Below, piece after piece: positions 52,060 through 64,000 of a stretch of DNA of 64,000 nt. Both the position numbers and the translations under genes were made by a program. The notes beneath the pieces are model-generated. The model was not told the origin of the DNA. It saw only the letters and a list, made by a program, of their open reading frames with translations, and did not search any database. Location: NCBI GenBank assembly GCA_017541465.1, contig JAFXYZ010000056.1, positions 1 to 64,000 of the forward strand. Direction: 5' to 3'. This DNA comes from a bacterium. Lineage in GTDB: Bacteria; Cyanobacteriota; Vampirovibrionia; Gastranaerophilales; Gastranaerophilaceae. How positions within the stretch are numbered: the first letter of the stretch is position 1; every line of letters starts with the position of its first letter.

Positions 52060-52851
52060 TTAAGTCCATTCCTCAATTTTTCGCTCTGAGTGTTTCCAGG
52101 AAATATTTTCTCTTTTATTAAGATTACAATATCTGCAAAAGGGAAGGGGTTGAGAAAAATATTCAGCTATTTGTTGACTATTAACCGAATTTTGGTGAAT
52201 ATCGAGATAGTCGTTTTCGCTCAGTTTTAAATCGGTTTTGAAGTAGTCGTTGAAGTGTCTTGAAGAAGGTGCAACGGAACAGCGGAATAATTTCCCGTTT
52301 TCAAGAGTTGCACAGTGGTTTCCCTGAAAACAGTCTTTTATTTTATCGCGGTTGTCCTCCGTTCCCGAGAGATTAAAAGGGGCTTTGCAGAAATCAAAGT
52401 TAGGTTTAAAGTCGATTTTGACGTTAAACCTCTCTGCCGTTTCTTTTATTTTTTTGTAGTCAATTTTCAGCTTATAAACAGTAACAGCGACAACTATATT
52501 ATTCCTGTTTAAATTTTCCCAGAAAGCTTTTTGCTGAGAGAGAAGGAGACTTCCGTTAGTAAAGAGAACGATGTTTGATGAAGGAAAAATTTTTCTTGTA
52601 TAGTCAAGAATTTTGGGAACATCTTTATTCAAAAGCGGTTCACCTCCCATAATTCCGATTAAATCGATATGGAAAAATATTTCGCTCATTCTTTTTATAT
52701 CTTTTTTAAAAATTTCAAAATCAGCAAACTCTTCTTTTGCAAGCGGAGCGCAGTGGTCACAGCCTGCACAATTAATATTGCAGTGATGTGCTATTTCATA
52801 GAGAAAATAGCCGAGACAGAGTTTTTCGTTTTTGTAGTAAAGCTGTTCCAT
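52060..52851 (-). CDS. Radical SAM protein with C-terminal cysteine cluster
   Basis: This 263-residue radical SAM protein has the core motif C24-x3-C28-x2-C31 (CNINCAGCDHCAPLA), GIMGGEPLLN near 64 and LFTNGSLL near 98. C-terminal CRYC and other cysteines (DCFQGNHC, LFRCSVAPS) form a SPASM-like auxiliary cluster. The CNxNCAGCDHxAP sequence is found in enzymes near polysaccharide and peptide modification genes. The substrate is unknown. Start choice: ATG at 52851 gives MEQLYYKN; an in-frame TTG 13 codons earlier is possible but sits at the edge of a terminator. Confidence 0.85.
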   Translation of the reverse strand: MEQLYYKNEKLCLGYFLYEIAHHCNINCAGCDHCAPLAKEEFADFEIFKKDIKRMSEIFFHIDLIGIMGGEPLLNKDVPKILDYTRKIFPSSNIVLFTNGSLLLSQQKAFWENLNRNNIVVAVTVYKLKIDYKKIKETAERFNVKIDFKPNFDFCKAPFNLSGTEDNRDKIKDCFQGNHCATLENGKLFRCSVAPSSRHFNDYFKTDLKLSENDYLDIHQNSVNSQQIAEYFSQPLPFCRYCNLNKRENISWKHSERKIEEWT

Positions 52852-52891
52852 AACATGCTCAAATATATCATTTTTGATAAATAATGACAAT

Positions 52892-56141: not shown

Positions 56142-56795
56142 TTACCACGGATAATCGTCTTTGATTTGCCAACTGTCTTTCATTATAAGAGTTGCACAAT
56201 ATGTACCACTCTTTTGTTTATTACAATTACTTAGTATATCATTTCTAGAAGATGAAGGATTTATTGGAGAAAAAATTCCTTGCTTAAGGTCATAAATAAA
56301 GAAAAAGATGTCTCGACCAACTTTATTTGGTTTTTTATCACCATTTATATCAATATACATATCCAATCTTATTACAGTAGAATTACTATTTTTATAAATG
56401 TATGATGTTACAGACGTACCATCTGAAATATAAAATCTGACATCCCCTTCACCATAAGATGCTTCATTTCCATTTAATAAATAAAATATACTGTCCCAGC
56501 CTTCAGAAATATCTTTTGGAGCTTTTATAATATTGATGTATGGTGCAATATATTTATTAATAAACGATATAGCATCATTAGAATTATTTGGCAGACCTAT
56601 TTCCCAGGTTTCAATCGGGCCGTTATCAGCAATGGCTCTTGCAGTTGTTTGCGAAAGTGTTGAATAAACTTTTTTAAGTCTTGTAACAGTTTGTTCTTTC
56701 TGATATTTAGTTATTAAAGTCGGAACTGTTATTGCAGCAATAACACCGATTATAACGAGGGTAATCAAAACTTCTGCGAGAGTAAAAGCGAACAT
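56142..56795 (-). CDS. Prepilin (paralog 4), leader disrupted by a frameshift
   Basis: This 217-residue prepilin body starts MFAFTLAEVLITLVIIGVIAAITVPTLI, with Glu5 of the motif but Ala instead of Gly before the cleavage site. DINGDKKPNKVGRDIFFF lies near 165. The ATG at 56795 follows AGGAG at seven bases, a site that happens to lie in a G-rich palindromic repeat. A longer leader starting at 56934, with the AAAGAGAGA site and MKNKLLLTPP like prepilin 2, is cut by a run of nine C at 56904-56912. With eight C the frame would run straight through into this gene. The expressed product is therefore uncertain. Confidence 0.75.
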   Translation of the reverse strand: MFAFTLAEVLITLVIIGVIAAITVPTLITKYQKEQTVTRLKKVYSTLSQTTARAIADNGPIETWEIGLPNNSNDAISFINKYIAPYINIIKAPKDISEGWDSIFYLLNGNEASYGEGDVRFYISDGTSVTSYIYKNSNSTVIRLDMYIDINGDKKPNKVGRDIFFFIYDLKQGIFSPINPSSSRNDILSNCNKQKSGTYCATLIMKDSWQIKDDYPW

Positions 56796-56798
56796 ATT

Positions 56799-56844
56799 CC
56801 CTCTCCTCGGGAGAGGGTTAGGGTGAGGGTTGTACCCGTTAGGG
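56799..56844 (+). repeat. G-rich palindromic repeat in prepilin 4 leader
   Basis: CCCTCTCC-TC-GGGAGAGGG, then TTAGGG, TGAGGGTTGT, ACCCGTTAGGG. Same order of parts as at 17876. Confidence 0.75.
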
Positions 56845-56855
56845 TTTCCAAATTC

Positions 56856-56890
56856 TTGAGATTCTTCGCTTACACTCAGAATGACATCAT
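56856..56890. repeat. TTCTGAGTG/GAAGAATCT type repeat
   Basis: GAGATTCTTCGCTTACACTCAGAATGACATCA on the plus strand; on the minus strand ATTCTGAGTGTAAGCGAAGAATCTC. Similar to a short interspersed repeat (ATTCTGAGCGAAGCGAAGAATCT) common in many bacteria. Confidence 0.6.
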
Positions 56891-56970
56891 TATAGTTTTT
56901 ATAGGGGGGGGGTAAGAAGTAATTTATTTTTCATTAATATATCTCTCTTTCTCAAAACATATTTATAAGT

Positions 56971-57001
56971 ATAATACCATATTTTCAAAAAATTTTAACA
57001 G
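56971..57001 (-). promoter_or_regulatory. Promoter of prepilin 4
   Basis: CTGTTA (56996-57001), 19 bases ending TATGG, then TATTAT (56971-56976). Same group as at 13483 and 18652. Confidence 0.5.
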
Positions 57002-57021
57002 CGAGTTTGAATTTATTATAT

Positions 57022-57660
57022 TTAATAATAATTTATTGCACCTTCCCTCAATACCTGACAAGTAGCATTATGACCTCTTGTATCAAAGGGTACTCTGTTG
57101 CAGCCGCGGGGATGTAAACCGTTTTTTTCTGTTACAAGGAACTGATACATATCTTTTCCCCAGGTATTAGGTTTCTTTACACCGTTTACATCAACCCAAA
57201 GCCAGACACAACCATATTCTCCACACGTATTATCCGTTTCTCTGAAAAATATCAGAGTACCGTCTGACAATACGAGTTTGGGCAAAGTTGAATTATCATA
57301 ATCGTTATAAGGTTCACCGCTTAAATTGTATATTGAACCTGTATTCCAACATCCTGAACCATTTGGACAATCTTTTGAATTAAGCAGTTTTGGTTTATAA
57401 AGGTCATATACTTTATAAATATCCGTTGCCCATCCGCCTTTATCTGCTCTCGGAATTCCTTCTTCGGCAATAATAGAATTTGTTGCCTGAGAAAGAGTTG
57501 AATATGTCTTCTTTAATCTTGAAACGTACTCTTGTTTATTTGTATTGTTAATTATAGCCGGAACAGTTATAGCGGCAATAACACCAATTATAACCAAAGT
57601 TATCAATACCTCTGCAAGTGTAAATCCTTTTAAATAATTTTTATGGTTTATTCTAAACAC
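57022..57660 (-). CDS. Prepilin (paralog 5)
   Basis: This 212-residue prepilin has leader (V/M)FRINHKNYLKG, then FTLAEVLITLVIIGVIAAITVPAII. DVNGVKKPNTWGKDMYQFLV and the end CNRVPFDTRGHNATCQVLREGAINYY fit the group. The GTG at 57660 is chosen because AAAGAGAGA lies five bases ahead, as before the other prepilins. An in-frame ATG at 57750 would give a 30-residue longer start with no such site. No homopolymer in the leader. It is most similar to prepilin 3. Confidence 0.85.
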   Translation of the reverse strand: MFRINHKNYLKGFTLAEVLITLVIIGVIAAITVPAIINNTNKQEYVSRLKKTYSTLSQATNSIIAEEGIPRADKGGWATDIYKVYDLYKPKLLNSKDCPNGSGCWNTGSIYNLSGEPYNDYDNSTLPKLVLSDGTLIFFRETDNTCGEYGCVWLWVDVNGVKKPNTWGKDMYQFLVTEKNGLHPRGCNRVPFDTRGHNATCQVLREGAINYY

Positions 57661-57883
57661 AACCTTCTCTCTTTTTTTGGCAATATCAAAATATAATATT
57701 ATCATTATTCCTCGATATTGTAAAAAAATACCAAACCAAAATCTTATCAACCAAAATCAGCCTTCAATTAATCGGCTTAACATTCCTTAACACTCCGCCA
57801 TAAAAAAGTAAATTTCAAAAATTGAAAATACTTTATATAGGCATCAAAAGTAAGTGTGTAGTGAAAAATAAGGAGTGTGTGTT

Positions 57884-61004: not shown

Positions 61005-63251
61005 TTATGGTCTTTGAATAGTCAGGGGAATATCCTTCGGATAAACCTCCTGAATGACGTCATCTATTGCTTTGATGATAAAGAATCCGATATTTTTGCC
61101 CTGAGGGATTTTGAGGTCATCAAACGGAACAGACACTTCAAAAATATCCTCTAAGCCGTATCTGATATCGTTTTTAATCTCAAGTTCCCACGTGCCGTCT
61201 TTGGCAGCCTTCGCAAAGTGATAGGGATATTTGGGGTTCTTTGCAAGCCAGAATTTGACTTCGTGGGTGTAGGTATCATAGAGAATCGGGAAATTTTCTT
61301 CTTTTTTGACAATGACACGAACGGGAGAATTAGGACAGGTCAGGTCATCAAGTGCTTTTATATAAATATAAATGGCAAAGTCCTTTTTAAACACACCCTT
61401 TTCTCTTGCAAACTGGTTTATATCGAACCTGAGATAAAGGTTTTCACTGTCGCATCCGAAACAAATTCTGTTAAACAGTTTATATTCCTGCAAAACAGGA
61501 CCTGCCGGAATATCGATACAGCCGGCATACTGCCATTCGTCATTGAACATATCAATTCCGTTGACGCAGGGGGTAATTGTGCGCTTAGGAACTCTCGAAG
61601 GCTTTCCGACTATTGAAATAAGCGGCATCTGAAGATATTCGGGAATTTCTTTTTCAAGCGCAACATATATATTTTTAAGATGTTCCCTGAACATATAGTC
61701 AAAAACGTGGTCCTGCCCTGAGTTATTAGGTTCGCCATACCACCAGAACCAGTCGCTGCCCTGGGTAATCTGAAGCTCCCGGGTAGCAAAAGCAATGGCA
61801 TTTTTGGTATATTTACTGTCCTTAGCGCAGAAATTAATGAGCTCTTTTGCCTTCTGGATATAAGTCCAGGCAACATTTTTTGTAGGCTCTGCTATCCAAA
61901 ACTGGTAATTGTTGTTTGCGGAAGAACCGACCGAAATTCTGTCTATACACTTTGCAAGAAGATTATTCTTTTCTATATATTCATTTACGATAACAGTTTC
62001 AAGAGAACTGTCCTCTGCAATAAGTTTATACAAGTGATTTAGGAAAATACTGCCGTTTTCTTCATAGCTGTCCCAACTGTTTTCACCATCCATAGCTATT
62101 GTCAGAAGGTGGGTTTTATCAGGTGAGTTTCTGAGTTTATCCTGGGCAATTTTTATTCTCTCATATAAATCATTCGCACTGTCGATACTGTCGTGCTGAG
62201 GATATTCAAAACTGATTAACTTCGCAATAATACTATCCCTGAAGATTAATTTAATCTCATTTTTATTCTTTGTTTCGTAAGAATAAACGGAGGCAAGGTC
62301 GTATGGCTCTTCAAGACAGCCCTTATAATCTCTCACAAACTCTTTTCTGAGAGAATCCGCAAGAGTGGAATCCTCGCTTATTGTCCATTTAAAGCCCATA
62401 TCGGCAAGCATTTCGACTGTCTTTTTACTTAAACACAACTCAGACGGCCAGCAACCTTTGGGAGTTTCACCAAACACCTCTTCAAAACGGTTTATCGCCT
62501 TTTCAAGCTGAGTTCTCGCATCATCTGCCATATTTATTTTGCAATCCGGCATGGAATACTTTGAAGATGCCGTTTTTATATCGTTTGCATTAATTAAAAT
62601 CGGCAAAATCGGGTGATAGTATGGTGAAACAGAAATACCTATTCTGTTTTCTTTAAGATATTTTTTCCAGGTCGGTATAATTTTTGAGATGATTTTTCTC
62701 TGAATATCGATAATTAATTTTCTGTCCTTCAGAGTAAAATTTTGCCCTTTTTGTTCCAGTTTTCTTAAAGCCGGGTACTCATTTTTCCAGTGTTCATCAA
62801 ACCAAACGAAATTGAACCAGAACATAATATCGCCGTATTCTTTGTCGGAAAAGTCATTAACGTTAATCTCGGACTTGGAATATCTTTTATTGTAGAGATT
62901 TACATATTCCTTGTATTTTGAAATCAGGTGGTTGTAGTCAACATCAAAAAATGAGTTTAAAATATAGAGTTTATCGTTTTCGGTAAGCTCTTCAACAGGT
63001 GTAACCGTCAGTTTTGAATGAAGGTCATGGTTATTTTCTTTGGAATAGTCCAGAATAGTATCAATCAGAATCGGGGAAATATTGAAATTAAGTTTTATAT
63101 CGGGGTGTTTTTCAAGGATAGCGACCATATTGAGGTAATCTTTAACCGCATGAAGTCTCGCCCAGGGCATAAGCCTGAGGCTGTTAGGCTGTGTCTGGTA
63201 ATTAGGCTGGTGCATGTGCCAGACAAATGCAATCGCTAATTTTTTTTGCAT
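61005..63251 (-). CDS. Glycoside hydrolase family 57 protein (alpha-amylase-like)
   Basis: This 748-residue GH57 enzyme has motif 1 WHMHQP at 11-16, motif 3 CWPSELCLS near 268 with the nucleophile Glu, and motif 4 AMDGENSW near 395 with the acid Asp. The catalytic barrel spans roughly 1-520. The C-terminal 200 residues carry a beta-rich domain (NLYLRFDIN, FAIYIYIKALDDLT) that probably binds carbohydrate. It acts on alpha-1,4 glucans or related polymers inside the cell, as no signal peptide is seen. The promoter is the TATGGTATTAT type at 63283. Confidence 0.93.
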   Translation of the reverse strand: MQKKLAIAFVWHMHQPNYQTQPNSLRLMPWARLHAVKDYLNMVAILEKHPDIKLNFNISPILIDTILDYSKENNHDLHSKLTVTPVEELTENDKLYILNSFFDVDYNHLISKYKEYVNLYNKRYSKSEINVNDFSDKEYGDIMFWFNFVWFDEHWKNEYPALRKLEQKGQNFTLKDRKLIIDIQRKIISKIIPTWKKYLKENRIGISVSPYYHPILPILINANDIKTASSKYSMPDCKINMADDARTQLEKAINRFEEVFGETPKGCWPSELCLSKKTVEMLADMGFKWTISEDSTLADSLRKEFVRDYKGCLEEPYDLASVYSYETKNKNEIKLIFRDSIIAKLISFEYPQHDSIDSANDLYERIKIAQDKLRNSPDKTHLLTIAMDGENSWDSYEENGSIFLNHLYKLIAEDSSLETVIVNEYIEKNNLLAKCIDRISVGSSANNNYQFWIAEPTKNVAWTYIQKAKELINFCAKDSKYTKNAIAFATRELQITQGSDWFWWYGEPNNSGQDHVFDYMFREHLKNIYVALEKEIPEYLQMPLISIVGKPSRVPKRTITPCVNGIDMFNDEWQYAGCIDIPAGPVLQEYKLFNRICFGCDSENLYLRFDINQFAREKGVFKKDFAIYIYIKALDDLTCPNSPVRVIVKKEENFPILYDTYTHEVKFWLAKNPKYPYHFAKAAKDGTWELEIKNDIRYGLEDIFEVSVPFDDLKIPQGKNIGFFIIKAIDDVIQEVYPKDIPLTIQRP

Positions 63252-63312: not shown

Positions 63313-63408
63313 CATGAATTATATAAAAATGTAAAAAAGAATAAACAAAGATGAAAAAAATAATTTTCTCTGATATTGTGATAGTGTGAAAAATTAAAGG
63401 GATAAATA

Positions 63409-64000
63409 ATGAACAGGCGAGATTTCATAAAAACATCATTATGCCTTGGTGCTGCTGCAGCAACCTGCGGATGTATTTACGGCTCAAAACTGGTTTATAA
63501 CTCGGAACATCCGGAAAATAAGTTCAGGCTGAAACATAAATCTGATTTACCCAAAAAAGTCAGACTTGAAGCCTGCAATAAATGTCAGCTGAATTGTGCC
63601 GCCTGCTGGATAAGAGCAGAGGAACAGCGAATTATTGATGAAGGCGGCGGTTTCGGATATTTAAAATTTGAAGATTTCAAAAATTTTGTTGATAAACACG
63701 ATTTTATTAAAGAAATAGAACTTTCAAACAACGGTGAAATTTTCCTTAACCCTGAGCTCGACGATATTATCAAATATGCCTATGAAAAAAATATCCAATT
63801 ATCGGCACAAAACGGAGTTAATTTAAATACTGTTTCCGATGAAACCCTTGAAAATCTCGTAAAATATAAATTTAATGCAATTATGGTTTCATTAGACGGA
63901 GCAACCCCTGAAACCTATTCAATTTACAGAAGAGGGGGTGACTTTAACACGGTTATTTCCCATATAAAAACCATTAATAAATTCAAGGAAAAATATAACT
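63409..64000 (+). CDS. Radical SAM protein with a twin-arginine signal (3' end cut by window)
   Basis: Only the first 197 residues are visible. Residues 1-27 read MNRRDFIKTSLCLGAAAATC and on: an RR-x-F-x-K twin-arginine motif, a hydrophobic stretch and a cysteine that could be a lipobox. The radical SAM motif follows: C56-x2-C59-x3-C63-x2-C66 (CNKCQLNCAAC). The conserved LDGATPETY near 163 and YRRGGDFNTV fit the SPASM-type barrel. A Tat-exported radical SAM enzyme is very unusual because SAM is made in the cytoplasm. The start is ATG 63409 with AAAGGGATAA upstream. The C-terminus is outside the window. Confidence 0.85.
   Translation, partial: MNRRDFIKTSLCLGAAAATCGCIYGSKLVYNSEHPENKFRLKHKSDLPKKVRLEACNKCQLNCAACWIRAEEQRIIDEGGGFGYLKFEDFKNFVDKHDFIKEIELSNNGEIFLNPELDDIIKYAYEKNIQLSAQNGVNLNTVSDETLENLVKYKFNAIMVSLDGATPETYSIYRRGGDFNTVISHIKTINKFKEKYN

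Follow-up and report, generated by a model that had tools for sequence, protein, structure and literature searches.

Radical SAM enzymes with predicted twin-arginine leaders, singly and in arrays, in Gastranaerophilales

The locus and its radical SAM gene

The window, meaning the whole stretch of 64,000 nucleotides that was analysed, covers positions 1-64000 of contig C18 in a genome of 2.1 Mb and 74 contigs. A radical SAM gene begins close to its end and is cut by the window edge. The features of this locus are as follows.

61005..63251, minus strand: GH57-type glycoside hydrolase (PF03065, 176.1 bits), a divergent neighbour given for context only
63396..63405, plus strand: Shine-Dalgarno-like AAAGGGA (63396-63402) and in-frame stop TAA (63403-63405), from the DNA letters
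63409..64000, plus strand: radical SAM gene, codons 1-197 of 393
63409..63480, plus strand: predicted Tat signal peptide region, residues 1-24, MNRRDFIKTSLCLGAAAATCGCIY, end estimated, from PF10518 and hydrophobicity
63415..63432, plus strand: R-R-D-F-I-K motif, residues 3-8 (AGG CGA GAT TTC ATA AAA), from the DNA letters
63583..63606, plus strand: C59-x3-C63-x2-C66 (CQLNCAAC), radical SAM [4Fe-4S] cluster motif
63727..63738, plus strand: N-N-G-E at residues 107-110, in the position of the G-G-E motif

The contig continues past the window, and the gene ends at window-equivalent 64590, which gives a full gene of 393 amino acids (L004:3410-4591). Its open reading frame (63409..>64000, plus strand) begins with MNRRDFIKTSLCLGAAAATCGCIYGSK, in which the protein start MNRRDFIKT is followed by a hydrophobic stretch. 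The start codon is fixed by the in-frame TAA and by AAAGGGA just upstream. No in-frame ATG, GTG or TTG occurs from codon 1 to Cys59, and the leader must therefore be translated. A preliminary description of this DNA had set a correct start downstream of the twin arginines as a refutation of the Tat signal; no such start codon is present. Several prepilin-like ORFs, in the window (56142-57750) and at L004:11169-11974, share GFTLAEVLITLVIIGVIAAITVP as a repeated N-terminal cassette.

The Pfam family Radical_SAM matches the full protein with 38.8 bits, above its cut-off of 29.5. The three cysteines that had been described as intact behind RR-x-F-x-K and a hydrophobic segment were read in the ORF as C59, C63 and C66. 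They are invariant in 106 of 106 alignment rows, as are G109 and E110 of the N-N-G-E stretch, which we take to be the SAM-binding motif. The C-terminal domain contains four conserved cysteines (308, 326, 372 and 375), presumably resembling a one-cluster twitch domain, and SPASM (PF13186) falls under its cut-off of 21.5 both in the window protein (20.4 bits) and in its paralogue (16.7 bits). Thirty columns are conserved to at least 97% in the 85 leaderless rows, and 22 of them are the same throughout the 21 leader rows. Among the 22 are C59, C63, C66, G109, E110 and all but one of the four C-terminal cysteines; the exception, C326, is replaced by His in one leader row. The retention of active-site columns argues against both decay and a switch of cofactor. 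Loss of radical SAM function in the leader-bearing copies was rejected, as the motifs are kept, and a cofactor other than SAM, suggested earlier as an option, is not supported, since the motif cysteines and the G-E motif are found in 21 of 21 such copies.

A structure model built from a 21-row alignment has a mean pLDDT of 81.5, with low confidence in the leader (8-32) and in the loop 263-296. The modelled fold is that of a radical SAM barrel, as all of the top 50 structure matches are radical SAM proteins or close to them; SuiB, SkfB, DesII, anSMEcpe, MoaA and PqqE are among the matches. By its sequence, the enzyme is a radical SAM protein with a SPASM/twitch-like C-terminal cysteine domain, and SAM cleavage is predicted.

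Conservation and distribution of the leader

In the window protein, TAT_signal (PF10518, cut-off 22.7) matches residues 1-19 with 19.1 bits when the protein is scanned alone and 23.4 bits in the genome scan. The paralogue on contig C27, which is 52% identical, has a weak score of 11.8. The best 12-residue Kyte-Doolittle mean of the hydrophobic stretch after the RR motif is 1.79, within a range of 1.28 to 2.10 across 21 leaders. Neither the window protein nor the paralogue has a lipobox of the form [LVI][ASTVIG][GAS]C, and no clear cleavage site was seen in the window protein; a loose lipobox match is found in seven of the 21 leaders, the window protein not among them. A start-anchored search for ATG-x-R-R-x-F-[IL]-K returned two matches in the 2.1 Mb genome, namely the window gene and the paralogue, and none with the reversed-pattern control. 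The unanchored pattern RR-x-F-[IL]-K is at chance level in the same genome, with 42 matches (23+19) vs 48 (28+20) in the control; a chance match of the motif was rejected on the anchored count. PF10518 has three matches across this genome: the window gene, the paralogue and one within an unrelated ORF.

Close members of the family occur in six genomes besides its own, among 99 relatives, and a profile search finds members in 25 of the 383 genomes of Gastranaerophilales. Several genomes carry arrays: G022 has seven copies in a row, G163 five and two, and G055 three in a row plus others. In the G022 array (L037:3499-11330), HlyD-type and transporter genes precede the seven tandem genes, and the first copy has lost its leader. 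The array neighbours are to be read as examples, not rates, since 17 were picked from the 100 listed for domain scanning. Among these 17, PMT_2 glycosyltransferase matches, weak or clear, lie near three arrays, one of the three being over the cut-off, and other arrays adjoin pyruvyl transferase, GT9, acyltransferase and FkbM methyltransferases. For the leaderless homologues of other phyla, the commonest neighbour family is glycosyltransferase 2 (7 of 133, with 133 of 237 neighbours scanned). The neighbours give a faint hint of cell-envelope glycans.

Among the N-termini read for this family, M-x-R-R-x-F is found only in copies of four genomes, G000, G022, G055 and G163. These leaders number 21, with R-R and F present in 21 of 21 and K in 20 of 21. 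The codons of the conserved arginines vary: the first Arg is AGA in 13, CGC in four, AGG in two, CGT in one and CGG in one, and the second is AGA in nine, CGC in seven, CGT in two, CGA in two and CGG in one. A PF10518 scan of the four genomes gave 26 matches, of which 24 are radical SAM genes, the other two being a contig-edge fragment with such a leader and a match inside an unrelated ORF. The same scan of G017, G053 and G011, which have leaderless members, gave no credible match. Homologs with the same start, which had been called for, are the other copies among these 21, and the rest of the window gene was read to 393 amino acids.

Relatives are encoded in 249 stretches of the public genome collection; the best 80 of the 249 (76 loci), which represent many phyla, were analysed, and those homologues among them that come from other phyla lack the leader, their N-termini being different or short. 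The family tree has 106 rows; of 114 distinct reading frames, the eight that were fragmentary, weak or lacking the motif were excluded. On this tree three changes are required to explain the 21 leader rows, whose clades group with a clade of Gastranaerophilales that has no leader. Together with the N-terminus readings, the tree indicates that the leader arose secondarily in one or two subclades and was then kept through lineage-specific duplications. Homologues that lack the twin arginines, which the preliminary description had named as a refutation, occur in other phyla and among sister Gastranaerophilales, but on the tree the leader is derived and is retained in 21 of 22 full-length copies of the leader subclades, one G022 array copy being the exception. 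The sequences show that the leader is part of the protein, under selection within the paralogue clade and confined to genomes with TatC.

A second leader-bearing family and the Tat machinery

Leaders of the same kind are carried by a second family of radical SAM enzymes, about 300 residues long (CYHCNLNCAYC and GGEPL in G163), which also forms arrays in G163. Nine of the ten PF10518 matches in that genome are on this family, and a first-family copy accounts for the tenth. The second-family arrays of G163 have five, three and two copies (L221:3100-7699, L223:4257-7096 and L224:5061-6917), all with Tat leaders, in which R3, R4, F6 and K8 are invariant in 10 of 10. The second-family profile is found in 92 of the 383 genomes of the order. 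N-termini were read at 30 loci and 20 stretches only, and leaders too unlike the model could be missed elsewhere. Within this scope, leaders were found in G394, G384, G403 and G345, and the form M-K-R-R-D-F-I-C-G in G226, G166, G342, G048, G390 and G318. The 53-row tree of the family places its 21 leader rows in two clades and needs three changes, at least two of them forced by starred branches. In G223, the leader region of one copy contains a stop codon or has one close by. The window itself encodes a second-family member (52060-52890, minus strand; CNINCAGC, GGEPL) that is leaderless and was removed from the tree by the motif filter; its relatives in G163, G394, genus g41 and others have leaders.

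TatC is present in 139 of the 383 genomes of the order, and also in G022. All 14 leader-bearing genomes, counted over the two families, have it. Among the carriers of either family within the 383, TatC is found in 13 of 13 with a leader vs 40 of 88 without (Fisher p 1.3e-4), a test whose observations are not independent and whose true weight is lower, because eight of the 13 leader genomes belong to one genus. For the first family only, the counts are 3 of 3 vs 12 of 22 (p 0.25). TatC is absent from several leaderless first-family carriers, namely G017, G053, G011, G344, G063, G296 and G371. The genome of the window has a TatC of 165.7 bits (cut-off 132.7) and a TatA-type protein of 52.6 bits, just under the cut-off of 53.9. 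The tat genes and the redox genes associated with them in relatives are located as follows.

L047:9114-11357 (G000:C46), minus strand: tatA-tatC operon whose first gene encodes the NapH-like five-ferredoxin membrane protein P0003
L226:7034-8842, minus strand; L228:7198-9013, minus strand; L230:589-2406, plus strand; L231:776-2722: aldo/keto reductase-ferredoxin / flavodoxin loci

P0003, a membrane protein of the NapH-like type, has five clusters and, inside its chain, N-R-R-R followed by a hydrophobic stretch. As an Fe-S protein with such an element, it is another candidate Tat client, and it is likely a dual-targeted protein. The NapH-like polyferredoxin is found in 14 of 14 leader genomes, in eight of nine leaderless genomes with TatC and in one of eight leaderless genomes without TatC. 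Tat in this order is therefore tied to redox Fe-S proteins generally, not to radical SAM enzymes alone.

In relatives, the tat genes are adjoined by an aldo/keto reductase-ferredoxin fusion with a Tat lipoprotein start and by a flavodoxin with a hydrophobic N-terminus. The aldo/keto reductase-ferredoxin Tat lipoprotein is encoded beside tatA-tatC in G001, G043, G189, G109 and G391, and at L231 its gene is split by a frame break. These two genes may form an exported redox module. An exported flavodoxin was considered as electron donor, with little gained: the hydrophobic-start flavodoxin of relatives does not track the leader, and in the genome of the window no exported flavodoxin was found, the homologue there beginning without a hydrophobic stretch.

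Possible roles of the leader and comparison with known systems

A Tat signal directs the export of folded proteins across the membrane. To our knowledge, radical SAM enzymes are considered cytoplasmic without exception, since the cytoplasm is where SAM and strong reductants are found, and we know of no SAM or low-potential electrons outside the membrane. Radical SAM enzymes with Tat leaders in a gut relative of cyanobacteria, expanded into gene arrays in several of its relatives, are surprising, since SAM is regarded as intracellular only. The literature search, which covered little of the subscription papers and preprints, found no Tat-targeted radical SAM enzyme described, and none is described in the available parts of PMC10924467, PMC2964644 and PMC9431212. 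The domains are known, and their combination with a Tat leader appears to be undescribed in the literature found.

The idea of a radical SAM enzyme with a Tat signal, put forward from the first lines of the gene, gains support from the paralogue, the arrays in relatives, the second leader-bearing family, the presence of TatA and TatC, and the confinement of the leader to genomes with TatC. The product of the window gene is probably a genuine client of Tat that is exported, or tethered to the membrane, with Fe-S clusters already inserted. Folding and [4Fe-4S] cluster insertion would occur in the cytoplasm, after which the RR leader would engage TatA/TatC. The enzyme would finally be held at the membrane, through a lipid modification in some relatives and in a signal-anchor-like manner in others, and on the outer face, or on its way there, it may work on the cell envelope, for which the polyferredoxin encoded beside tatA-tatC is a candidate electron route. 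A fuller scheme, in which radical SAM sets exported with Fe-S clusters loaded are active at the inner membrane on its outer face and remodel envelope molecules, with electrons from a Tat-exported polyferredoxin and with SAM that either travels in the active site or is provided outside, is speculative and rather doubtful.

The site of the chemistry could also precede export, such that the enzyme acts while still in the cytoplasm or on the inner side of the membrane, the leader serving to dock it at the membrane or to let a modified partner leave with it. This possibility is a real one, though we lean clearly against it. It requires neither SAM nor a reductant outside, it agrees with the conserved catalytic residues and with closest folds that include the peptide- or protein-modifying SuiB, SkfB and anSME, and close leaderless relatives in the same order manage without export. 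However, one exported enzyme per product would be costly, and no partner or precursor gene was found beside the window gene or in the arrays among ORFs of at least 50-80 amino acids. A simpler role, in which the leader is an uncleaved N-terminal membrane anchor without Tat transport and the catalytic domain stays inside, would suit the modest TAT_signal scores and the hydrophobic stretch of the paralogue (P0002), which ends without Cys. A plain anchor does not need two arginines that are invariant despite varying codons, nor does it need TatC, yet the leaders occur only in TatC-bearing genomes; the anchor is therefore improbable. That the RR stretch is not a functional signal, through chance or a misannotated start, is strongly disfavoured and very improbable: the unanchored motif is indeed common, but the start-anchored counts, the conservation in 21 copies and the lack of an alternative start stand against it.

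Tat leaders have been fitted repeatedly to two radical SAM families, with catalytic residues kept and in TatC genomes only, which makes radical SAM chemistry outside the membrane directly testable. If true, such chemistry would be new biology, and radical SAM enzymes would represent a large share of the recognisable Tat clients in some gut bacteria.

Several known systems resemble parts of the window protein. SuiB is alike in fold over residues about 31-393 (Z 19.8, rmsd 3.9, 267 aligned), and anSMEcpe matches the model with Z 18.7. The SPASM/twitch enzymes SuiB, SkfB, anSMEcpe, PqqE, DesII and BtrN have the C-x3-C-x2-C motif and the C-terminal cysteine pattern in common with it, whereas sequence identity is 10-17% and a Tat leader, present on the window protein, was found here on none of the six. 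The best NCBIfam match is TIGR04317 (tungsten cofactor oxidoreductase radical SAM maturase), with 87.3 bits over residues 48-250. This is far under the cut-off of 380 and leaves the C-terminal half unmatched, and membership of that family was ruled out on the score. The NapH/MauN-type ferredoxin membrane protein P0003 is likewise an Fe-S protein, but it is polytopic and without a radical SAM domain. The window protein is without a strict lipobox, whereas the aldo/keto reductase-ferredoxin Tat lipoproteins of the same order (start MKRREFIINSALAAGGAALLAGC) have a clear lipobox, L-A-G-C; their leader, M-K-R-R-E-F-I, is like that of the window protein.
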